A DNA stretch of 64,000 nt. It comes from Vreelandella azerica. Its GTDB lineage: Bacteria > Pseudomonadota > Gammaproteobacteria > Pseudomonadales > Halomonadaceae. Where the stretch lies: positions 62,001 through 126,000 of the forward strand of contig NZ_JABFHI010000003.1 of the NCBI RefSeq assembly GCF_013112225.1, in the 5' to 3' direction. Position 1 is the stretch's first letter. Each line of letters begins with the position of its first letter. The notes under the pieces are model-generated. The model worked only from the letters and a program-made list of their open reading frames with translations. It searched no databases and was not told where the DNA came from. Position numbers and translations under genes: made by a program. This document shows, one piece after another, positions 49,481 through 64,000 of the stretch.

Positions 49481-50073
49481 AGCAATTCGAATAGTTATAG
49501 TCAATTAAACTGAGTTTATAGCAGTATATTATAACTTTATTTATATGCAAAATTCTTATATAGCCGGTGGCTGTGAGTCATGAAATGCTTGGTAGACGCT
49601 TATGGTAGAAGGTAAAAAATATCCGTATCAGTAGCGCTGAGTGGAAGTTGTCGCCTGATAGCAGGTGCTATGGTGGATGATGTGGTTGTTCTAAAGCGAA
49701 CTTAGGAGTAAGGCAGGATGTAACCCTAGTTGCGTGGGAATTTATCAGATTTTTTAGGCGAAAATTTTTTGCGTGGATTAGAATGTTAAATCGGGTTACG
49801 TTATATTGCTCATAGCATTGAAATACTCTGGCAGCACTTAAATAAAATTTATCTGTTCCATGCAAAAATTTTGCGCCGCACGACTGGGTCATTTTGCTCT
49901 TGATGGACGTAGAGGCAATGTCTGAAGCGGCTGGCTATAAATCGTCCAAAAGCTTGGTGCCGGAAGAAAATAATTAAAAAATGTTTCTCTAGGCACTGCG
50001 TGCGCTCACCACAACGTCTTCATCAACAGTCCTGCTGAAATAGCCTGACTGAGTGACACATAAGGGATCAACA
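49481..50073. other. AT-rich intergenic region upstream of the Lap-type locus
   Basis: About 590 bases without a convincing gene, clearly richer in A+T than the flanking genes. Short open frames lack start signals. It precedes the TolC-OmpA-SPOR gene and is likely to hold its promoter and control sites; none can be assigned confidently. AAGGGA (50062-50067) is the ribosome-binding site of the next gene. Confidence 0.5.
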
Positions 50074-52299
50074 ATGGATATGAAACCAATGTACACACTA
50101 GGCAAGTCAGCGGTTCGCAAAGCGACACTGCTTTCTACAGCGGCTTTTGTAGGAGGAGGCTTGGCACTGTTGCCGTTGACACAGGCCGTTGCTCAGTCGT
50201 TGCCCAACGGTATGTCGGCAGCAGGTTCCGCCGATCTACGCTCGGTGGTTCAGCAGACGATTACTCAGAACCCCGAAGTGAAGGCTGCCTTCCAAGCGTT
50301 TAGCGCTGCAGGCTTTGATACTGATGAAGCGCGCGGAGGTTTTTTGCCCACGCTGGACGCCACAGCAGGTATCGGGCGTGAAAGTGTGGAAGGGGATGGT
50401 CGAGGCAGTTTTGATAGCGATTTTGTGCAACTTGAACTCAATCAGATGGTTTTTGATGGTTTTGCAACGGCCAATGAAGTTGAGCGTCTCAACAAGGCAC
50501 GTCTAGTACGTTACTACGAACTGTTGGATGCCAGTGAGCAGGTCGCTCTTGAAGCTGCCCGTGCTTACGCAGATGTCAAACGTCACAGGGAACTGGTGCG
50601 CCTGGCGCAAGATAACTATGCCGAGCATCTGCGGGTTTATAATCAGATTGAAGAGCGTGCTCTCTCAGGGGCTGGGCGAGGCGTGGATCTTGAGCAGATA
50701 TCTGGCCGACTGGCATTGGCCGAATCCAATCTGATGACAGAGGCTTCCAACCTTCACGATGTGTCAGCTCGCTATAAGCGCATAGTGGGTGATTTACCTG
50801 CTGAAACCCTTGAGCAGGCGCCTGAAATGGCTGGGTTTTTGCCACCTTCGGTCACTGACGCGGTCAACCTGGCTTTTGAAGGTAATCCGGAATTTCATGC
50901 GGCCATTGAGAATATTGACGCAGCCCGTGCTCAGCAGGATGTGACCCGCTCCGGCTTTCAACCACGTATGGATATTGTTGGGCGTGCTGGCACCAACAAT
51001 AACAGCGATGCAGGCCTGCAGGGGCGCCGTGATGAACAGAGCATTGAGCTAGTGGCCAGCGTTAATCTATTCCGCGGTGGCTCTGACCTGGCTTCTTTCC
51101 GCGCAGCCAGTGAGCGTATTGATCTTGCAGTTAATGAACGTGAGCTGATCTGTCATAACATTCGCCAGACTACTCAGATTGCCTACAACGATACCCAGCG
51201 CCTGCGCGAGCAGATGGAGTACCTTAACCAGCACCGTCAGTCAATTGACCGCGTGCGCGGCGCCTATCAGCAGCAGTTTGATATTGGCGAGCGTACCTTG
51301 CTGGACGTGCTTGACAGTGAAAACGAATACTTCGAAGCCAGCCGCGCTTACGTTAACGCTGAATATGACGTGCTGATTGCGGATGCGCGTACACTGGCCT
51401 CGATGGGGCAGCTGTTGCAAACTCTGGAAGTGGCCAATAGTGATATCCCGAGCCTGTCTGATCTTAACAGTCAGGGTGTCAATATCGACCCGGAAACCGT
51501 GTGTCCGGTTGAGGGCCCGGAAGGCTTTACGTTAGCCGACCTGGTAGGTGATGTGACAGCACAGCCTACCCGTGCACCGGATGCGATTCTGTCGGCAGAT
51601 GCATTGTTTGCTATTGACAGTGCGGTGCTTAGTGCAGAAGCGCGTTCGGAGCTGATGCAGCTGGTCGATCAGATTCGTGGTCGCGAAGATCTTGGGCGCA
51701 TCTATATCGCTGGCCATGCGGATACTACCGGTAATGACGCGATTAATGAGCCGTTGTCACGTCGGCGCGCTGAGAGTGTCGCTAACTTCCTTATCCAGCA
51801 AGGAGTAAACGGCAGCCTGATACAAACCGAAGGGTTCGGTTCCCGCCAGCCGGTAGCCAGCAACGACACAGCGCAAGGGCGACGCCAAAATCGGCGCGTT
51901 GAGGTGACCTTGGAAACCTTGGGTGAACTCGGCGATTATATGGTAACCGATACTCGCAGCGCCCAACCTGTGCCGACCTTATCGGCTGAGCAACAGCAGG
52001 GCAGCTTGAATGCGAGCTACGCCGGGTCAACTTCGTCGCGTCAGCAACCCGCGCAAACAATGCGCCAAACCGCTAATCAGTCAACCGCCAATTTCTATCT
52101 GCAGGTTATGGCATTGAGCAACGAGGAATCTGCTCGTGAGCTACAACGGTCACTACAGCAGCGCGTGGATGGTTCGGTTCGGGTGGTTAACGGAGGTGGT
52201 TTCTTCCGCGTCCAGGTAGGCACCAATGGCAATCCGATGGAGTTGCGCCGTCAACTTGATTCATTGGGCTACTATGATGCCTTCCCTGTCAGCAGTTAA
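50074..52299 (+). CDS. TolC-family outer-membrane protein with OmpA and SPOR domains
   Basis: The type I secretion outer-membrane pore (LapE-like). A signal peptide (to about residue 41, AVAQS) precedes the TolC fold (about 50-440): LRSVVQQTITQNPEVKAAFQ, then a duplicated half, and RTLLDVLDSENEYFEASRAY near the end. An OmpA-like peptidoglycan-binding domain follows (about 510-620, IAGHADTTGNDA, LSRRRAESVANFL, GRRQNRRVEV). After a Gln/Ser-rich linker comes a SPOR domain (about 675-738, NFYLQVMALSNEESARELQR, GGFFRVQVG). ATG at 50074 has AAGGGA 6 bases upstream. The three-domain build is unusual. 741 residues; frame intact. Confidence 0.88.
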   Translation: MDMKPMYTLGKSAVRKATLLSTAAFVGGGLALLPLTQAVAQSLPNGMSAAGSADLRSVVQQTITQNPEVKAAFQAFSAAGFDTDEARGGFLPTLDATAGIGRESVEGDGRGSFDSDFVQLELNQMVFDGFATANEVERLNKARLVRYYELLDASEQVALEAARAYADVKRHRELVRLAQDNYAEHLRVYNQIEERALSGAGRGVDLEQISGRLALAESNLMTEASNLHDVSARYKRIVGDLPAETLEQAPEMAGFLPPSVTDAVNLAFEGNPEFHAAIENIDAARAQQDVTRSGFQPRMDIVGRAGTNNNSDAGLQGRRDEQSIELVASVNLFRGGSDLASFRAASERIDLAVNERELICHNIRQTTQIAYNDTQRLREQMEYLNQHRQSIDRVRGAYQQQFDIGERTLLDVLDSENEYFEASRAYVNAEYDVLIADARTLASMGQLLQTLEVANSDIPSLSDLNSQGVNIDPETVCPVEGPEGFTLADLVGDVTAQPTRAPDAILSADALFAIDSAVLSAEARSELMQLVDQIRGREDLGRIYIAGHADTTGNDAINEPLSRRRAESVANFLIQQGVNGSLIQTEGFGSRQPVASNDTAQGRRQNRRVEVTLETLGELGDYMVTDTRSAQPVPTLSAEQQQGSLNASYAGSTSSRQQPAQTMRQTANQSTANFYLQVMALSNEESARELQRSLQQRVDGSVRVVNGGGFFRVQVGTNGNPMELRRQLDSLGYYDAFPVSS

Positions 52300-52405: not shown

Positions 52406-54574
52406 GTGCCTAACGAAAGCCACTTGATGCCAGAAGAGCCCGCGACCTTGGCGGAGGCGGATGAACTGCTGGAATGCCTGCTGAGTATTGCCCACCAGCA
52501 CCACCACGAGACCACCCGGGAAGCGCTGCGGGCGGGGTTGCCGCTGGAAGAGGGCAAGCTGACCCCGGGCGTCGTGGGCCGCGCCGCTGCTCGCGCTGAC
52601 CTGACCGCGCGGATTGTCAAAAGCCCGCTGGGCGAGCTGAACCCGGCGCTGTTTCCGGTCATCCTGCTGCTGGAATCAGGCCGTGCCTGTCTGCTGCAAG
52701 AGGTGGATCTGAGCACCGGGCAGGCGACGGTCAGCTTTCCGGAACTCAGCGACGCCACCACCGATATCAGCCTGCACGGCCTGGCAGAGGCCTACAGCGG
52801 CCAGGCCATCTATGTGCGCCCCAAGTTCCGCTTTGACGCCCGCGGGCCGGAAGTCAAACAGTCCCGCGAGCGCCACTGGTTCTGGGGCGTGATCCGCGAA
52901 AACCGCAAGCTCTATCGGGATGTGATCCTGGGCTCGGTGCTGATCAACCTGTTTGCCGTGGCCATGCCGCTGTTTGTGATGAACGTCTACGACCGGGTAG
53001 TGCCCAACGCCGCCACTGAAACGCTCTGGGTGCTGGCAGTAGGCATTCTGATCGTGCTGTGTTTTGATCTAGCCTTGCGCCTGATGCGCAACTTCTTTGT
53101 CGATCTCGCCGCCAGTCGGGCAGACGTCAAGCTGACGTCCTCAATCATGCAGCGGGTACTGGGCATGCGCATGGAAGCCAAGCCGGCCTCCACCGGCTCC
53201 TTCACCTCCACCCTGCAGTCGTTTGAATCGGTCAGGGCCTTTATCGGCTCGGCCACTATCGTTGCCCTGGTGGACCTGCCCTTTGTGCTACTGTTCATGA
53301 CCATTATTGCCCTGATCGGCGTGCCCCTGGTGATCCCGATTGTGGTGGGCGCGGTGTTTGTCCTGCTGTACGCCATGGCCGCCCAAAGCAAGCTGCACGA
53401 ACTCTCCGAGACCACCTGGCGGATCAGCGCCCAGCGTAACTCCACCCTAGTGGAAGCAGTGGGCAATCTGGAAACCGTCAAGGCCCTGCGCGGCGAAAGC
53501 CGCCTGCAGGGCAACTGGGAACGGGCCTCGGCCTTTCTGTCCCGCACCGCCGCCCAGCTGCGTCTGGTCAGCACCTCGGTGACCAGTGTGGCCCTCTGGG
53601 CCCAGCACACCGTCTCGGTGGTGATCATTATCATCGGCGTCTACCTGATCATTGAAGGTGAGTTGACCCAGGGCGGCCTGATAGCCGCCTACCTGCTGTC
53701 CTCCCGAGCCATGGCGCCGATCAGCCAGGCCGCCGGCCTAATGGCCCAATACCACCAGTCGGCCACCGCCCTGGAAGCGCTTAACGGCGTGATGGACAAA
53801 CCCCAGGAACGCACCGACAGCAAACGCTACATTGACCGCCCCGTGGTGCAGGGCGACCTTCGCTTTGACAGCGTCTCACTGCGCTACCCGGACGAAGAAC
53901 GCGATGCCCTGCGCGAGGTCAGTTTCCGCCTTAAACCCGGCGAAAAAGTCGCCCTGATCGGGCGGATTGGCTCCGGTAAATCCACCCTCAACAAGCTGCT
54001 GCTGGGGTTCTACCAGCCCACCAGCGGTGCTGTGCTGCTCGACGATGTGGACATTCGCCAGTACGACCCCCTGCAACTACGCCGCCATATCGGCTATGTG
54101 CCCCAGGATATCACCCTGTTCTACGGCTCTCTGCGCGACAACATTGTCGCTGGCGGCGGTATTGACGGCGTGGATGACGACAAGCTGCTCGACGCCATCA
54201 ACCTCAGCGGCCTGGCCGATCTGGTGCGTTCCCACCCGCAAGGCGTGGATCTACCCGTGGGGGAAGGCGGCAGCCTGCTCTCCGGCGGCCAGCGTCAGGC
54301 AATTGCAATTGCCCGCGCCGTGGTGCATGCGCCCCAGGTGCTGCTGCTCGATGAGCCCTCCAGCGCCATGGACCACGCCAGCGAAGACCGGCTCAAGAAA
54401 CAGCTGACCCGCTACGCCGCCGACAAAACCCTGATCGTGGTGACTCACCGCACCTCACTGCTCTCCCTGGTCGACCGGATTATCGTTATGGACGGCGGCA
54501 AGGTGATGGCCGACGGCCCCCGCGAGCAGGTGGTGGAAGCGCTGCGCAAAGGGCAAATCGGGAGGGCCAGCTAA
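52406..54574 (+). CDS. lapB: LapB/HlyB-type ABC exporter for the adhesin
   Basis: Inner-membrane ATPase/permease of a type I secretion system. The first 145 residues are a C39 peptidase-like domain without the catalytic Cys, which serves substrate binding rather than cutting. Membrane helices span about 160-430. The ATPase has Walker A GRIGSGKST (about 518), LSGGQRQ (about 624) and Walker B LLLDEPSSAMD (about 645). A GTG at 52406 is the start. 722 residues, intact. It overlaps lapC (GCTAATGG). Named after LapB because the retention-type adhesin follows; identity is by architecture. Confidence 0.88.
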   Translation: MPNESHLMPEEPATLAEADELLECLLSIAHQHHHETTREALRAGLPLEEGKLTPGVVGRAAARADLTARIVKSPLGELNPALFPVILLLESGRACLLQEVDLSTGQATVSFPELSDATTDISLHGLAEAYSGQAIYVRPKFRFDARGPEVKQSRERHWFWGVIRENRKLYRDVILGSVLINLFAVAMPLFVMNVYDRVVPNAATETLWVLAVGILIVLCFDLALRLMRNFFVDLAASRADVKLTSSIMQRVLGMRMEAKPASTGSFTSTLQSFESVRAFIGSATIVALVDLPFVLLFMTIIALIGVPLVIPIVVGAVFVLLYAMAAQSKLHELSETTWRISAQRNSTLVEAVGNLETVKALRGESRLQGNWERASAFLSRTAAQLRLVSTSVTSVALWAQHTVSVVIIIIGVYLIIEGELTQGGLIAAYLLSSRAMAPISQAAGLMAQYHQSATALEALNGVMDKPQERTDSKRYIDRPVVQGDLRFDSVSLRYPDEERDALREVSFRLKPGEKVALIGRIGSGKSTLNKLLLGFYQPTSGAVLLDDVDIRQYDPLQLRRHIGYVPQDITLFYGSLRDNIVAGGGIDGVDDDKLLDAINLSGLADLVRSHPQGVDLPVGEGGSLLSGGQRQAIAIARAVVHAPQVLLLDEPSSAMDHASEDRLKKQLTRYAADKTLIVVTHRTSLLSLVDRIIVMDGGKVMADGPREQVVEALRKGQIGRAS

Positions 54575-56002
54575 TGGCGAAAAAACAGCAGCCAACCGCC
54601 GAAGAAAAAGTTTCGAGAACCTTGGCCGCTTTACTGCCAAAGGCGGCAAGTTCTTCCGCCCCTTTATGGACCGGCTGTTTTCCAAGCGGGTCACCTCCGC
54701 CCACCTCAACCGTGACTGGGCCAGCGACGCCGACTGGGCGCGGCTGCAGCAGAACCCGCTGCGTGCCCGGCTGTTTCTGTACACCGTAGTGCTCGCGGTG
54801 GTGGCCCTGATCACCTGGTCTTATTTTGCCGAGATCGACGAAGTCACCCGCGGCCAGGGCCGAGTGATACCCGCCCAGCAGCTGCAGAAAGTGCAATCCT
54901 TTGACGGCGGCGTGGTGCAGGCCATCAAGGTACGCGAAGGCCAGCTGATCGAGACGGGGCAAGTGCTGATGGAAATCGACCCAACCCGCTTTGTCTCGGA
55001 CTTCCGCGAAAACCAGTCCCAGGTGCAAGCCCTGCGCGCCCGCGCCGAACGGCTGCGCGCCCTGGTCACCGATACCCCCTTTGCCCCTGATGAAGACCTG
55101 CTTCGCGACGCCCCCTCCGTGGTGGCCCAGGAGCGCGAAGCCTACGACAGCCGCCGGGAAGAACTGCGCGAACAGGAAACCGTGCTGCGTGATCGTATCC
55201 GCCAGCGTGAGGCCGAGCTGCTGGAAGCCCGGCTGCGCCGCGATACCGCCTCCCGGGAACTCAACATGGCCAACCAGGAACTCCAGCTCACCCGGCCGCT
55301 GCTGCAATCCGGCGCCGTCTCCGAGGTCGAAGTCCTGCGCCTGGAGCGGGAAGTCTCGCGCAACCGCGGCGAGCGCGACCAAGCCAACGCCGCCATCGAC
55401 CGCTTGCAGGCCGCGGTGGAAGAAAGTCAATCCCAGCTGCGTGAGCTCGGCGCCGAACGGCGCAGCGAATGGCGCAACGACCTGGCCAACACCATTGGGG
55501 ATATCCAATCGCTTGAAGAAGCCAGTACCGGACTGGAAGACCGCGTCCAACTTTCAGAAATTCGCTCGCCGGTCAACGGCGTTGTCCAGCAGCTGTATAT
55601 CAACACCCGCGGCGGGGTGGTTCAGCCCGGCCAGGAGGTGGTCGACATCGTCCCCAGCGGCGAACAGCTGCTGGTTGAAGCGCGGATTGCCCCCAGGACA
55701 TCGCTTTCCTACGCCCCGGCCAGCCGGCCACCGTCAAGCTGACCGCCTACGACTACGCCGTCTACGGCGGGCTGGAGGCCGAGCTTGAGCATATCAGCGC
55801 CGACACCATTACCGACGAAGAAGGCAACACCTTTTACCAGGTGCGGGTGCGCACCCAGGAAGGCCAGGTCGACACCGACGAAATAGACGTCATCCCCGGC
55901 ATGACCGCCCAGGTCGACATCATGACCGGCAAGCGCACGGTGATGGAATTTCTGCTCAAGCCGGTGTTACGGGCCTGGAACAATTCATTGGGAGAACGCT
56001 GA
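54574..56002 (+). CDS. lapC: LapC/HlyD-type membrane fusion protein, two frameshifts
   Basis: Links the ABC exporter to the outer-membrane pore. A cytoplasmic N-terminus, one membrane segment (LFLYTVVLAVVALITWSYFA), a lipoyl-like domain (GVVQAIKVREGQLIETGQVL), a long coiled coil (about 130-330) and a beta-barrel end (VRTQEGQVDTDEIDVIPGMT, HlyD family signature region) follow. Frames change near 54615 and near 55700 (ARIAPR to DIAFLRPGQPATV). Corrected length is about 476 residues. The stop overlaps the LuxR-type regulator ATG (TGATG). Confidence 0.88.
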
Positions 56003-56637
56003 TGAACCACCTCTTTATCACCCCCGCCGCGCGTTTACAGCCCCGCTGGCAGGCAGCGTTTCCACAGGCCACGCTCGCCGCCGTCGCCCCTGAAACAGAC
56101 CGCCTGACACCACCGCCGGATATCATATGGATTGTCTGCGAAGGCGAACAGCAACCCCTCTCAGCGCCCCTTCTGGAGGCAGTAACCCGTTTATCCGCCG
56201 AGAGCGCCGTGGTCGTGCTGGCCAACGCCCCTCAGCAGGCCGATGCCCTGCAGGCCCTGCAAGCCGGGGCGCGAGGCTATGCCCACGCGCTCAGCCCGGT
56301 GGCCACGCTGCAGCAGATTGCCACCGTGGTGACGAATGCCGGGATCTGGGTACCCGCCGACCTGATGGCTCAGGTGATGGGGCACACCTGGCAAGCGCTC
56401 AACGGCGAACAGCGTCTCAGGCACGCCCTGCTGGACAAACTCACCGAGCGCGAACGGGAGGTGGCGCTGGCGGTGGTACAAGGGGCAAGCAACAAACAAG
56501 TGGCACGCACCCTCAACATTACCGAGCGGACGGTCAAGGCGCACCTGACCTCGATTTTTCATAAGCTTGAGATTACGGATCGGATGCAGCTGATGTTGAA
56601 ATTGACGGAGAAGGTATCAGCTAAAGAAAGAATTTAA
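56002..56637 (+). CDS. LuxR/NarL-type transcriptional regulator
   Basis: A 211-residue protein. The N-terminal 130 residues resemble a receiver fold (DIIWIVCEGEQQPL, VVVLANAPQQADALQALQAG, ARGYAHA) but lack the clear phospho-acceptor Asp. The C-terminal LuxR helix-turn-helix is LTEREREVALAVVQGASNKQ and TLNITERTVKAHLTSIFHKL. It overlaps lapC and precedes the adhesin gene, a conserved place for a regulator in such clusters; it probably controls the adhesin or the operon. Signal unknown. Confidence 0.85.
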   Translation: MNHLFITPAARLQPRWQAAFPQATLAAVAPETDRLTPPPDIIWIVCEGEQQPLSAPLLEAVTRLSAESAVVVLANAPQQADALQALQAGARGYAHALSPVATLQQIATVVTNAGIWVPADLMAQVMGHTWQALNGEQRLRHALLDKLTEREREVALAVVQGASNKQVARTLNITERTVKAHLTSIFHKLEITDRMQLMLKLTEKVSAKERI

Positions 56638-56942: not shown

Positions 56943-59900
56943 ATGAGTATTGCTACTGTTGTTGCCATTACCGGTCAGGCCTTTGCCCGTGACGAAGATG
57001 GAAACCTTCGAGAGCTAAGCGTCGGGGATACCCTTCAGGAAGGCGAAACCTTGGTGACCTCGCCCAATGGCGAGGTTCAACTGGACTTTAACGATGGCCT
57101 TCCACCCACCTCCATTGGAGGGGGTGAAGAAGTTGCCATGAACGGTGATGTTGACGCAGAAAGCGCCGCGGATGAAGGTGAGTCCGCTACTCAGGATGAT
57201 GAGCTGGAAGCGATTCTCGCCGCCCTGGAAGATGAAGAAGGCGATATTCTTGAGCTGCTCGAAGCCACTGCAGCCGGTGGTGGCGCCGCCGGTGGTGGTG
57301 GTGGTGGCTCTGACTTTGTTCAGTTGGCGCGCATTGTTGAGCCTGTTGAAGGTCTCCAATATGATTTTGATGGCGGCATAGAGGGTGGCCTGACAACGGC
57401 TGAATTTTCAGGAATCGCAGCTGCCGAGGTAGAAGAAGAGCCTGAATCCGCGCCGCTGCCTGAGCCTACCATCTCGATTAATGAGATTGGCGTGATCAAT
57501 AGTATTGATGCTGAAGAGGGCAATAACATCACCATCACAGGTTCAGTCGGTGGTGACGCCCGTGAAGGCGATACGATTACACTGACAGTGGGTGATGACA
57601 CCTTTAACGGCACCGTCACGGAAGATTTGACCTACGCCATTGATGTACCGGGGGCACTGCTGGCTGAGAATGATAGTGTTGATGCAGAAGTGACCGGTAC
57701 AGACGAAAACGATATCGATTATTCTGCTGAGACAAGCACTGATTACACCGTTGATCTGGAAGCCACGGCAACCATTATCATTGACACCATCACCGATGAC
57801 GATGTGATCAACGGTGAAGAGGCTGAAGACAACATTACCATTACCGGTAGCGTCCGCGGCGACGCCAGTGAAGGCGATACCGTCACTCTTACCGTAGGTG
57901 AAGACACGTACACAGGTACGGTGGGTGAAGACCTGACCTACGCCATCGACGTGCCGGGCAGTGTGCTGGCCGAGAACAGTAATGTTGGAGGTGAAGTCAC
58001 CGGCATCGATGAAAATGGTAATGAGTTCACGGCTGAGACCAGCCGTGATTACGCCGTTGATCTGGAAGCTATTGCTACTGTGACCATCGACACCATTGCT
58101 GGTGACGACATAATCAATACTGAAGAGGCTGATCAAGAGTTTACCACCATCAGCGGTACGGTTAGTGGTGATGTCGTTGTGGGTGACACTGTCACCCTAA
58201 GCGTCAACGGAACTACCACGACGACTGATGTGCTGGCAGATGGCGATGGCAACCTGATTTACAGCACTACAGTGGCTACCGCTGACCTTCTGGCAGATAA
58301 CAGCATTCAAGCCAGCGTTACAGCTACCGATGAGGCTGGTAATAGCCAGACCGCCACCGCAACGCGTGATGTTGATATCGACGCTTCTCCGGCATTAACC
58401 CTGACGGTCGCCGATGCGGGCACCATCAACGAAGGCGATACCGCCACCTTTGATGTCAGCCTGAGCAACCCGGTCGATAACGCCACCACCCTGACCTTTG
58501 AGCTGGGCGGCGAGATCGACGGCGATGACGTGGGGATTCCCACTGCCAGCATTGGCGGTACGGGTGTCGCGGTCACTGACAACGGTGACGGCACCTTCAG
58601 TGTTGACGTGCCCGCCGGTACCACCGACGGCATCGCGATCAGCGTACCGACCAGCGATGACGATGTGTTTGAAGGGCCGGAAGCTCTCACCCTTACCGCG
58701 ACCTTGAGCGGCGAGACTGCAGCAGGTAGCGCACTCCCGGCCGACCTGACCGACACCGGCAATGCCACCCTGGTCGATGACGGCACCGGCACCCCAGATG
58801 ATCCCAATGAAGACCCGGATGACGACACCCCGACCCTGACGGTTGCCGATGCAGGCACCATCAACGAAGGCGATACGGCCACCTTTGATGTCAGCCTGAG
58901 CAACCCGGTGGATAACGCCACCACCCTGACCTTTGAGCTGGGCGGCGATATCGATGACGATGACGTGGAGACGCCCACTGCCAGCATTGGCGGTACGGGT
59001 GTCGCGGTCACTGACAACGGTGACGGCACCTTCAGTGTTGACGTGCCCGCCGGTACCACCGATGGCATCGCGATCAGCGTACCGACTAGCGATGACGATG
59101 TGTTTGAAGGGCCGGAAGCTCTCACCCTTACCGCGACCCTGAGCGGCGAGACTGCTGCCGGTAATGCCCTGCCAGACGGCATCACTGATAGTGGGGATGC
59201 CACCCTGGTCGATGACGGCACCGGCACCCCGGATGATCCCAATGAAGACCCGGATGACGACACCCCGACCCTGACGGTTGCCGATGCAGGCACCATCAAC
59301 GAAGGCGATACCGCCACCTTCAATGTAGAGCTGACGAATCCGGTCGATAACACCACCACCCTGACCTTTGAGCTGGGCGGCGAGATCGACGGCGATGACG
59401 TGGCTACCCCGGTCGCCAATATCGGCGGCACAGAGGTCACGGTCACTGACAACGGTGACGGCACCTTCAGTGTTGACGTGCCCGCCGGTACCACCGACGG
59501 CATCGCGATCAGCGTACCGACCAGCGATGACGATGTGTTTGAAGGGCCGGAAGCCCTCACTCTGACTGCGACCTTGAGCGGCGAGACGGCGGCGGGGAAT
59601 GCACTCCCGGCCGACCTGACCGACACCGGCAATGCCACGATCCTCGACGATGACCTGCCGACGATCTCGGTGAGTAATACCGTGGACGATGACGCAGTCA
59701 CCGTGACCGAAGGCACGGATGACTTTGCCGTCTTTGAAGTCAACCTGAGTAATCCCGCGGCCAGCGACCTGAGTTTTGATCTGGCTCTGAACGCAGGGAC
59801 TGCGGACCTGGCAGACGACTTCGGGCCTGGTCTGGAGGTCTCTACGGACGGCGGTAATACCTGGACGGCAAGCACGGTTGCCACGTTTGCGGCAGGTGAT

Positions 59901-62900
59901 ACCAGTGTGCTGGTCCGCACCCCGATCACCGACGACAATGTGGCAGAACCGACGGAAGCGTTCACGCTGACGGCGAGCGAACAAACCACCGACAGCACGG
60001 TGAACGGCAGTGCCACCAACACGGCCACGATCCTCGACGATGACCTGCCGACGATCTCGGTGAGTAATACCGTGGACGATGACGCAGTCACCGTGACCGA
60101 AGGCACGGATGACTTTGCCGTCTTTGAAGTCAACCTGAGTAATCCCGCGGCCAGCGACCTGAGTTTTGATCTGGCTCTGAACGCAGGGACTGCGGACCTG
60201 GCAGACGACTTCGGGCCTGGTCTGGAGGTCTCTACGGACGGCGGTAATACCTGGACGGCAAGCACGGTTGCCACGTTTGCGGCAGGTGATACCAGTGTGC
60301 TGGTCCGCACCCCGATCACCGACGACAATGTGGCAGAACCGACGGAAGCGTTCACGCTGACGGCGAGCGAACAAACTACCGACAGCACGGTGAACGGCAG
60401 TGCCACCAACACGGCCACGATCCTCGACGATGACCTGCCGACGGTGTCGATCAACAGTGTGGGCGGCGATAGGGTTACCGTGACCGAAGGCACGGATGAC
60501 TTTGCCGTCTTTGAAGTCAACCTGAGTAATCCCGCGGCCAGCGACCTGAGTTTTGATCTGGCTCTGAACGCAGGGACTGCGGACCTGGCAGACGACTTCG
60601 GGCCTGGTCTGGAGGTCTCTACGGACGGCGGTAATACCTGGACGGCAAGCACGGTTGCCACGTTTGCGGCAGGTGATACCAGTGTGCTGGTCCGCACCCC
60701 GATCACCGATGACAATGTGGCAGAACCGACGGAAGCGTTCACGCTGACGGCGAGCGAACAAACCACCGACAGCACGGTGAACGGCAGTGCCACCAACACG
60801 GCCACGATCCTCGACGATGACCTGCCGACGATCTCGGTGAGTAATACCGTGGACGATGACGCAGTCACCGTGACCGAAGGCACGGATGACTTTGCCGTCT
60901 TTGAAGTCAACCTGAGTAATCCCGCGGCCAGCGACCTGAGTTTTGATCTGGCTCTGAACGCAGGGACTGCGGACCTGGCAGACGACTTCGGGCCTGGTCT
61001 GGAGGTCTCTACGGACGGCGGTAATACCTGGACGGCAAGCACGGTTGCCACGTTTGCGGCAGGTGATACCAGTGTGCTGGTCCGCACCCCGATCACCGAC
61101 GACAATGTGGCAGAACCGACGGAAGCGTTCACGCTGACGGCGAGCGAACAAACCACCGACAGCACGGTGAACGGCAGTGCCACCAACACGGCCACGATCC
61201 TCGACGATGACCTGCCGACGATCTCGGTGAGTAATACCGTGGACGATGACGCAGTCACCGTGACCGAAGGCACGGATGACTTTGCCGTCTTTGAAGTCAA
61301 CCTGAGTAATCCCGCGGCCAGCGACCTGAGTTTTGATCTGGCTCTGAACGCAGGGACTGCGGACCTGGCAGACGACTTCGGGCCTGGTCTGGAGGTCTCT
61401 ACGGACGGCGGTAATACCTGGACGGCAAGCACGGTTGCCACGTTTGCGGCAGGTGATACCAGTGTGCTGGTCCGCACCCCGATCACCGACGACAATGTGG
61501 CAGAACCGACGGAAGCGTTCACGCTGACGGCGAGCGAACAAACCACCGACAGCACGGTGAACGGCAGTGCCACCAACACGGCCACGATCCTCGACGATGA
61601 CCTGCCGACGATCTCGGTGAGTAATACCGTGGACGATGACGCAGTCACCGTGACCGAAGGCACGGATGACTTTGCCGTCTTTGAAGTCAACCTGAGTAAT
61701 CCCGCGGCCAGCGACCTGAGTTTTGATCTGGCTCTGAACGCAGGGACTGCGGACCTGGCAGACGACTTCGGGCCTGGTCTGGAGGTCTCTACGGACGGCG
61801 GTAATACCTGGACGGCAAGCACGGTTGCCACGTTTGCGGCAGGTGATACCAGTGTGCTGGTCCGCACCCCGATCACCGACGACAATGTGGCAGAACCGAC
61901 GGAAGCGTTCACGCTGACGGCGAGCGAACAAACCACCGACAGCACGGTGAACGGCAGTGCCACCAACACGGCCACGATCCTCGACGATGACCTGCCGACG
62001 ATCTCGGTGAGTAATACCGTGGACGATGACGCAGTCACCGTGACCGAAGGCACGGATGACTTTGCCGTCTTTGAAGTCAACCTGAGTAATCCCGCGGCCA
62101 GCGACCTGAGTTTTGATCTGGCTCTGAACGCAGGGACTGCGGACCTGGCAGACGACTTCGGGCCTGGTCTGGAGGTCTCTACGGACGGCGGTAATACCTG
62201 GACGGCAAGCACGGTTGCCACGTTTGCGGCAGGTGATACCAGTGTGCTGGTCCGCACCCCGATCACCGACGACAATGTGGCAGAACCGACGGAAGCGTTC
62301 ACGCTGACGGCGAGCGAACAAACCACCGACAGCACGGTGAACGGCAGTGCCACCAACACGGCCACGATCCTCGACGATGACCTGCCGACGGTGTCGATCA
62401 ACAGTGTGGGCGGCGATAGGGTCACCGTGACCGAAGACAATGTGGCAGAACCGACGGAAGCGTTCACGCTGACGGCCGAACAAACCACCGACAGCACGGT
62501 GAACGGCAGTGCCACCAGCACGGCCACGATCCTCGACGATGACCTGCCGACGGTGGTGAGTAATACCGTGGGCGGCGATAGGCAGTTACCGTGACCGCGA
62601 TGACTTTGCCGTCTTTGAAGTCAACCTGAGTAATCCCGCGGCCAGCGACCTGAGTTTTGATCTGGCTCTGAACGCAGGGACTGCGGACCTGGCAGACGAC
62701 TTCGGGCCTGGTCTGGAGGTCTCTACGGACGGCGGTAATACCTGGACGGCAAGCACGGTTGCCACGTTTGCGGCAGGTGATACCAGTGTGCTGGTCCGCA
62801 CCCCGATCACCGACGACAATGTGGCAGAACCGACGGAAGCGTTCACGCTGACGGCGAGCGAACAAACCACCGACAGCACGGTGAACGGCAGTGCCACCAA

Positions 62901-64000
62901 CACGGCCACGATCCTCGACGATGACCTGCCGACGATCTCGGTGAGTAATACCGTGGACGATGACGCAGTCACCGTGACCGAAGGCACGGATGACTTTGCC
63001 GTCTTTGAAGTCAACCTGAGTAATCCCGCGGCCAGCGACCTGAGTTTTGATCTGGCTCTGAACGCAGGGACTGCGGACCTGGCAGACGACTTCGGGCCTG
63101 GTCTGGAGGTCTCTACGGACGGCGGTAATACCTGGACGGCAAGCACGGTTGCCACGTTTGCGGCAGGTGATACCAGTGTGCTGGTCCGCACCCCGATCAC
63201 CGACGACAATGTGGCAGAACCGACGGAAGCGTTCACGCTGACGGCGAGCGAACAAACCACCGACAGCACGGTGAACGGCAGTGCCACCAACACGGCCACG
63301 ATCCTCGACGATGACCTGCCGACGATCTCGGTGAGTAATACCGTGGACGATGACGCAGTCACCGTGACCGAAGGCACGGATGACTTTGCCGTCTTTGAAG
63401 TCAACCTGAGTAATCCCGCGGCCAGCGACCTGAGTTTTGATCTGGCTCTGAACGCAGGGACTGCGGACCTGGCAGACGACTTCGGGCCTGGTCTGGAGGT
63501 CTCTACGGACGGCGGTAATACCTGGACGGCAAGCACGGTTGCCACGTTTGCGGCAGGTGATACCAGTGTGCTGGTCCGCACCCCGATCACCGACACAATG
63601 TGGCAGAACCGACGGAAGCGTTCACGCTGACGGCGAGCGAACAAACCACCGACAGCACGGTGAACGGCAGTGCCACCAACACGGCCACGATCCTCGACAA
63701 CGATGTAAGCGTAACTACTAGCAATGATCTGATTGTTGATGAAGACGACTTACCAATAATAGGTAACAATGACTCAGCGGCAGGCGATGATGATCAGGTA
63801 TTGAGCGGTACCATCGTGTATTGCCCACGGGGAATACACTGGCATCCTCCGAGCCGATTGCACTCTCGGTGGATGTGTCATCGTTAACAACCTCGGATGG
63901 GCAGTCTGTTTCAAGTGTTTGGGATGCAGGCAGTAATACCCTGGTTGCTTATACCGGCAGTGATGCCAGTGACACAGATAGCCATGTGTTCACTATTACA
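56943..64000 (+). CDS. LapA-like retention-module giant repeat adhesin, incomplete, frameshifted
   Basis: A secreted biofilm adhesin. Residues 1-105 form a retention module (ATVVAITGQAFARDEDGNLR, LQEGETLVTSPNGEVQLDFN). TAAG at 109-112 in LEATAAGGG is the LapG-type cleavage motif, at the same place as in Pseudomonas LapA. Ig-like repeats of about 102 residues (TITGSVGGDAREGDTITLTV) follow, then three 145-residue and at least ten 130-residue Calx-beta-like repeats, then DLIVDEDDLPIIGNN, opening a T1SS-143/DUF5801-type region. Frames change near 62585, 63593 and 63820. The C-terminal RTX and secretion signal lie beyond the window. It follows its own exporter genes. Confidence 0.9.
57480..58390 (+). 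repeat. Three Ig-like repeats of about 306 bp
   Basis: Units marked by NNITITGSV (57523), DNITITGSV (57829) and TTISGTV (58141) each run to ATVTIDTI-type linkers. They diverge from each other in sequence, in contrast to the next families, so they are older. This is the Ig-like stalk type common in LapA/Bap proteins. Confidence 0.75.
58401..59640 (+). repeat. Three repeats of 435 bp (Calx-beta-like, family 1)
   Basis: Units begin with CTGACGGT(C/T)GCCGATGC at 58401, 58836 and 59271, exactly 435 bp apart; the third is cut at about 370 bp by the start of the next family. Each encodes LTVADAGTINEGDTATF to TAAGxALP, with an acidic linker (DDPNEDPDDDTP) that may bind Ca2+ at 58790 and 59225. Confidence 0.9.
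59641..63690 (+). repeat. Near-identical 390-bp repeats (Calx-beta-like, family 2)
   Basis: Units start with TCCTCGACGATGACCTGCCG at 59641, 60031, 60421, 60808, 61198, 61588, 61978, 62368, 62530, 62912 and 63302; the array ends at 63690. Most are exactly 390 bp and differ by only a few bases. The units at 60421 and 62368 begin with the variant VSINSVGGDR in place of ISVSNTVDDD. The one at 62368 is only 162 bp, and the one at 62530 begins with scrambled sequence. Each encodes about 130 residues. Confidence 0.95.

Follow-up and report, generated by a model that had tools for sequence, protein, structure and literature searches.

A TolC-type pore protein with OmpA-like and SPOR domains encoded beside a retention-module adhesin in Vreelandella azerica

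The DNA considered here, hereafter the window, is a whole stretch of 64,000 nucleotides from a contig of Vreelandella azerica, a member of the Halomonadaceae. Its forward strand carries a gene for a TolC-type outer-membrane pore protein, followed on the same strand by genes for an ABC transporter, an HlyD-type adaptor, a LuxR-type regulator and a retention-module adhesin, in that order. The relevant features are listed below in window coordinates.

50074..52299, plus strand, TolC-OmpA-SPOR outer-membrane pore protein of 741 residues (intact ORF, profile matches, AlphaFold2, Foldseek)
50230..51432, plus strand, TolC core (type I secretion outer-membrane factor), residues 53-453
51151..51153, plus strand, Cys360, one half of a conserved pair, within the long helix of TolC repeat 2
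51502..51504, plus strand, Cys477 at the root of the tail, the other half of that pair
51604..51894, plus strand, OmpA-like peptidoglycan-binding domain, residues 511-607 (Pfam match)
51721-51723 and 51766-51768, plus strand, Asp550 and Arg565, ligand positions within the OmpA-like domain
52084..52284, plus strand, SPOR domain, residues 671-737 (Pfam match)
52406..54574, plus strand, type I secretion ABC transporter of LssB/LapB type (TIGR03375, 946.2 bits against a cut-off of 693.1)
54552..55999, plus strand, HlyD/LapC-type adaptor stretch (matches the adaptor of the related genome G034)
56002..56637, plus strand, LuxR-type regulator (Pfam GerE and sigma-70 region 4 models)
56943..62594, plus strand, N-terminal part of the retention-module adhesin with Ig-like, Ca-tandemer and Calx-beta repeats (profile matches)
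57267..57278, plus strand, TAAG motif at adhesin residues 109-112, a LapG-type cleavage site by resemblance

Translation of the pore gene yields 741 residues with zero internal stops; an in-frame GTG at 50053 offers an alternative start that would give 748 residues, and the N-terminus, judged by eye, resembles a Sec signal peptide. Pfam recognizes OEP in two stretches (E 3.8e-49), OmpA (PF00691) at residues 511-607 (E 5.4e-21, 75.2 bits against a cut-off of 27.2) and SPOR (PF05036) at residues 671-737 (E 7.6e-9, 36.2 bits against a cut-off of 21), while the NCBIfam model TIGR01844 covers residues 53-453 with 276.4 bits (cut-off 225.15). Asp550 and Arg565 stand at the positions that contact the ligand in OmpA-family structures. 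The AlphaFold2 monomer model, built on 55 aligned sequences, has a mean pLDDT of 85.1 and a confident TolC protomer, OmpA domain and SPOR domain; blocks of ten residues score 86-97 both in OmpA (511-610) and in SPOR (671-740), and residues 623-670 fall below 50. Foldseek placed solved TolC chains on top (7ng9, E 5e-22) and, at lower ranks, peptidoglycan-binding OmpA domains (6jfw, E 1e-8; 3td5, E 6e-7), the latter an OmpA domain from Acinetobacter whose structure includes a bound stem peptide; no SPOR entry appeared among the best 50 matches listed. The original prediction of a single intact protein carrying TolC, OmpA and SPOR in this order is borne out by the profile matches and by the confident folds, which Foldseek corroborates for TolC and OmpA. 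An assembly artefact was ruled out as the source of the fusion by a place in G034 that is 98% identical to the pore and by a 71% identical paralogue in the same genome, both of which keep the three-domain order.

The genes around the pore form a recognizable Lap set. The adhesin, starting 4.6 kb downstream of the pore gene, bears a retention module (NF033682, 93.2 bits against a cut-off of 50), and its adjacency within the same operon agrees with what had been proposed. The TAAG motif follows this module; the LapG cleavage consensus is given as [T/A/P]AAG in PMC13090378. Eleven motifs of DDxP-ending repeats occur in the window ORF, DDxP proteins being a group described in the accessible text of PMC7730722. 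Beyond position 62594 the repeats run on in other frames, and the G034 counterpart of the adhesin has 6336 residues with RTX-like motifs near its end. Long near-identical Calx-beta repeats fill the region 56943-64000, and an antisense open frame (58307-62527, minus strand, 1406 residues) looks like a shadow of the adhesin repeats. The pore is encoded with its ABC and HlyD partners, although the HlyD frame is broken here: the adaptor stretch spans two frames with a switch near 55690, its longest ORF (54666-55742) encodes 358 residues, and the G034 adaptor has 489 intact residues, so that either a sequencing error or real decay may be at work. No receiver domain was found by Pfam in the LuxR-type regulator at E 0.001.

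On the same contig beyond the window, genes for LapD (PF16448, contig position 131490) and LapG (PF06035, 132177) lie between two paralogous operons; these genes and the second operon begin 19-21 kb downstream of the pore gene. The second operon, 21 kb downstream (within contig 131490-143500, locus L010), encodes a TolC-OmpA-SPOR protein 71% identical to the window pore, an ABC transporter, an HlyD protein, a LuxR regulator and a retention adhesin. Its ABC gene is split into three ORFs, perhaps through gene decay, perhaps through errors of sequencing. G034 has both operons as well; the second spans loci L044-L046, and LapG- and LapD-type ORFs of 240 and 633 residues, respectively, again separate the two. 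The second G034 adhesin has 3175 residues with DUF5801 repeats; since [TAP]AAG is absent from its first 250 residues and a GGxGxD motif is also absent, it may escape LapG.

Several described systems resemble this arrangement. The Lap system of Pseudomonas fluorescens (LapA/LapEBC/LapD/LapG) likewise has a TolC-like pore, LapE, serving a retention-module adhesin with the same exporter partners, together with LapD, LapG and a TAAG motif. In the portions of PMC13090378 and PMC6890996 at hand LapE is called only a TolC-like pore, a comparison made by description, whereas the pore described here carries OmpA and SPOR. The BpfA cluster of Shewanella oneidensis comprises the pore AggA, an OmpA-family protein, an ABC transporter, an adaptor and LapG and LapD homologues, but the OmpA protein, SO4321, is a separate gene instead of being fused to the pore, and SPOR is not mentioned in the available text (PMC4523816). 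According to the same text, SO4321 lies in the bpfA cluster and has a reported role in biofilm formation, and its function is given as unknown by its authors. In Pasteurella pneumotropica the pnxIII locus (PnxIIIE, PnxIIIA, TolC) encodes an RTX exoprotein, its type I exporter and a protein with an OmpA domain; however, pnxIIIE is a separate OmpA gene, the portion seen does not present the locus as a Lap system, and the authors report there that PnxIIIA associates with itself, a complex with the OmpA-domain protein not being claimed (PMC3075217). Finally, TolC of Escherichia coli is likewise supplemented, in the zone from its equatorial domain up to the outer membrane, by YbjP. YbjP is a separate lipoprotein, however, and according to the data in the excerpt of PMC13082787 it may not bind peptidoglycan avidly.

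How widespread is the fusion? The family was represented by 250 genomes, and the pore is matched at E <= 1e-100 at 144 places in 135 of them. Counted by eye from the table, at least 36 of these places (34 genomes) align into SPOR, a lower bound inasmuch as alignments may end before a diverged SPOR domain (for instance in G497, where the frame has 743 residues), and one of them, G513:C12, covers residues 394-739 only; 49 align through OmpA only and 59 stop before OmpA, some of the latter keeping SPOR alone. A unique architecture is rejected by these 36 or more places. The proposal that TolC-OmpA-SPOR is not a described system fared better on one side than on the other: no description of this or of a TolC-OmpA fusion was recognized among the matches listed in the open-licence PMC literature, and neither is mentioned in the parts seen of PMC12153261, PMC8277102, PMC8125075 and PMC12758282, but the architecture is common in the family. 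It is a recurrent and modular form of the known Lap-type pore, not a lone curiosity.

The same modularity is seen in a wider sample. In the best 80 of 571 relatives, OmpA and SPOR occur together in 8, every one of them under a Halomonas or Billgrantia title, and OmpA occurs without SPOR in 35, including members of Rhodoferax, Marinobacter, Stutzerimonas, Alishewanella, Gilvimarinus and Desulfuromonadales. SPOR alone is found in 3 and an NTF2-like Cds6_C domain in 6; the 28 without any of these domains include the partial gene L146 as well as L123 and L128, whose OmpA pieces, in a neighbouring frame, look like frame breaks of a fused gene. Other arrangements comprise an OmpA domain ahead of TolC instead of behind it (L187, 2124-3962), two OmpA domains on one TolC (L144), and OmpA preceded by thrombospondin-type repeats in L069 and by a bacterial Ig domain in L173. 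Profile matches above 25 bits, within at most 9 kb on each side, revealed no separate OmpA gene beside tailless pores of the family, nor did a single-sequence search beside L051, L053 and L055-L057. Outside the family, genome G217 (L215, minus strand) has an OmpA-domain ORF (1902-2447) that precedes a tailless TolC (542-1885) by 16 bases, and carries two retention adhesins on another contig. In L051 (9322-11185), from the single-contig, same-genus genome G036, SPOR lies in an ORF overlapping an early-ending TolC; the fusion may be naturally split there or interrupted by a frame shift.

The tail has changed often. On a TolC-core tree of 158 rows, a quick build with several long branches, the tail state needs 35 changes, with 19 for OmpA and 15 for SPOR; when well-supported branches alone are counted, at least 10 changes are needed for each domain. 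The tailless proteins of L030-L032, L118 and L124, all from the genus, end in a short stretch like the final SPOR residues, which suits an in-frame loss. In the OmpA-domain tree, weakly resolved with its 105 columns, 24 family tails cluster with L122 of the Ectothiorhodospiraceae and the L123 piece. This tree would suit a single old OmpA tail in the family followed by later losses, and leaves origins elsewhere unsettled.

The root of the tail carries one half of a conserved cysteine pair. Cys477 sits 34 residues past the last long barrel helix, and in the AlphaFold2 model, with helix 337-404 running down and helix 409-443 running up, residue 360 lies slightly membrane-ward of the end of the last helix. 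Of 160 TolC proteins in the alignment, 113 have both cysteines, 0 the core cysteine alone, 4 the tail-root cysteine alone and 43 neither; the set was chosen by likeness to the query and is non-random, with related rows that are not independent. Exactly two cysteines after residue 30 are found in 86 of the 113 pair-bearing proteins. The pair is also present in tailless members and marks the pore subfamily to which the window protein belongs; a putative Cys360-Cys477 disulfide would fasten the tail, at its root, to the equatorial region of the barrel. In L131, L132, L142, L147, L162 and L166 the pair coexists with a C-terminal NTF2-like Cds6_C domain in the OmpA/SPOR slot, and such tails show that the slot also accepts other domains. 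SPOR tails are carried by TolC proteins outside the cysteine-pair subfamily in L176 and L178, so wall-binding tails arise on other TolC lines too.

Where present, the tail domains evolve under constraint. The OmpA ligand positions hold Asp in 55 of 62 rows and Arg in all 62 (the window protein being counted twice). In pairs in which both genes keep the domain, and with synonymous sites near saturation in several of them, dN/dS is 0-0.10 for OmpA in eight of the nine pairs with a value and 0.28 in the ninth (a tenth gave none), and 0.05-0.33 for SPOR in all 8 pairs; the TolC core gives 0.01-0.17 across 13 pairs. In 6 of 8 pairs the least constrained part is the linker ahead of SPOR. From the low dN/dS and the conserved ligand residues, OmpA and SPOR look functional where present, though dropped by some lineages. 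The ligand Asp is replaced in 7 of the 62 rows, so some OmpA tails may not bind stem peptides.

Does the tail follow the adhesin? Within the syntenic operons of the Halomonadaceae, a retention adhesin lies beside 25 of 26 tailed pores vs 13 of 15 tailless ones (p = 0.54), a comparison covering 41 of 49 tabulated loci: the other eight had less than 1.5 kb downstream, seven of them showing a retention module and L117 having no sequence there. Omission of two tailless rows with a tail in a neighbouring frame gives 11 of 13 (p = 0.25). L095 was left out of this comparison, LuxR and HlyD being absent from its stretch, and the adhesin of L055-L057 was found by profile search after being missed by single-sequence search. 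Within the family, losing the tail is therefore not associated with losing the adjoining retention adhesin (p = 0.54). Across fetched stretches, which differ in length and are in several cases short, a retention module is nearby for 45 of 59 wall-tail pores, 16 of 35 tailless pores and 0 of the 6 NTF2-tailed ones listed above, with second TolC genes in L154, L164 and L172 included and the second G034 operon cut across L044 and L045.

In a class sample of 43 TolC places, with adjacency defined as a retention match of at least 50 bits within 25 kb on the same contig and with tallies made by hand for the Fisher tests, a tail is found in 7 of 17 adhesin-adjacent places vs 5 of 26 others (p = 0.17). 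Of the 9 pores that have the cysteine pair, 8 adjoin a retention adhesin, vs 9 of the 34 others (p = 0.001), and 7 have a wall-binding tail, vs 5 of 34 (p = 0.0007). At most four candidates were scored per genome; the genome of the window itself supplies 2 of the 43 places and one other genus another 2, a weak 34-bit retention match beside the TolC of G303 was scored as non-adjacent, and 7 of the places, added to the sample later, have neither the pair nor a tail. Since pair-bearing pores are adhesin-adjacent and tailed, yet within the family the adhesin adjoins pores with or without a tail, the tail goes with the pore subfamily that serves retention adhesins and is optional inside it. The architecture is common in the family, which speaks against the original prediction, and linked to retention adhesins, which speaks for it; its suggestion that the tail carries the adhesin load loses ground, a need for the tail being unsupported when 13 of 15 tailless family pores still adjoin a retention adhesin. 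Its further suggestion, that the tail places the pore at division sites, is conjectural.

OmpA domains bind the diaminopimelate stem, and SPOR domains bind denuded glycan at the septum. The window protein is, in our judgement, probably a Lap pore, dedicated to its adhesin, that brings its own peptidoglycan tether; the tether would strengthen the arrangement without being indispensable to it. The C-terminal tail would leave the barrel near the periplasmic equator and could reach the wall, where OmpA would bind the peptide stem of peptidoglycan and SPOR the glycan strands stripped of stems. If the pore forms a trimer, it would present three OmpA and three SPOR domains. The tail would tie the adhesin-loaded pore to the wall and share the pull on the adhesin, a form of strain relief. 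The pore itself would correspond to LapE, as the outer-membrane component of a type I secretion system that works in two steps in the Lap manner: the giant adhesin would be pushed out by the ABC and HlyD proteins, its N-terminal retention module would jam in the pore and keep it at the surface, and LapG, under the control of LapD and c-di-GMP, would end retention by cutting at TAAG. According to PMC13090378 and PMC6890996, a Lap adhesin remains lodged inside its TolC-like pore as long as LapG has not cut off the retention module. In E. coli, as set out in the section seen of PMC13082787, peptidoglycan lies between AcrA and TolC, and the TolC equatorial domain is proposed to touch it; by analogy, the tail of the window pore would leave the barrel roughly there. 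We infer the fastening to the wall, as originally predicted, from this analogy, the conserved ligand residues and the low dN/dS. The recurrence on TolC pores of OmpA, SPOR, both, two OmpA domains or an N-terminal OmpA favours a tether, as do the separate OmpA genes of the S. oneidensis bpfA cluster, of the P. pneumotropica pnxIII operon and ahead of the tailless TolC in G217, and 59 of 144 family places ending before OmpA (some with SPOR) indicate that the tail is dispensable, against its necessity.

Rather improbable, to our minds, is that the tail serves placement and not load. SPOR would then direct the pore to the septum, and OmpA to other sites, at which the wall offers space or undergoes remodelling and the tripartite exporter can assemble across it. 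The affinity of SPOR for denuded septal glycan would suit such a role, but tailless relatives with the same operon are common, so that assembly does not need the tail, and the OmpA-only tails of 49 family places would not mark the septum. The position of E. coli peptidoglycan between AcrA and TolC, against the equatorial domain, is also in its favour (excerpt of PMC13082787). Less probable still is a general tether of outer membrane to wall, in the manner of OmpA or Pal, with only an incidental link to adhesin export: there are OmpA tails on TolC proteins (L062, L138, L163) whose 20 kb stretches showed no retention module, but the pore genes belong to adhesin operons and the module is found near 45 of the 59 wall-tailed pores, several of the others having only a short stretch. 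That the tail binds a protein (retention module, LapG or adaptor) and tunes adhesin release, with wall binding secondary, is the least probable: the NTF2-like domain in 6 of the best 80 loci means that the slot need not hold a wall binder and 7 of 62 OmpA rows lack the ligand Asp, but the Arg is conserved in all 62 and SPOR, an unrelated second wall binder, occupies the same slot.

For the tethered Lap pore, a bolder version, which we consider unlikely as a whole, holds that adhesin pores form a distinct TolC subfamily with a disulfide-clamped socket for exchangeable wall anchors (OmpA, SPOR or both) as a strain-relief mount, that pores loaded with adhesin and bearing SPOR would track the glycan of the septum and populate the new poles, and that SO4321 and PnxIIIE would be the unfused anchor. 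More modestly, the fusion of OmpA to the pore suggests by analogy that the separate OmpA proteins of other adhesin or exporter clusters may act at the pore. The transfer of force from the pore of a retained giant adhesin to the cell body is unaddressed in the portions of the Lap literature examined. The fusion described here offers a role for the OmpA-like SO4321, and the natural series of no tail, OmpA, SPOR and both in the syntenic operons of one family makes the question of load directly testable.
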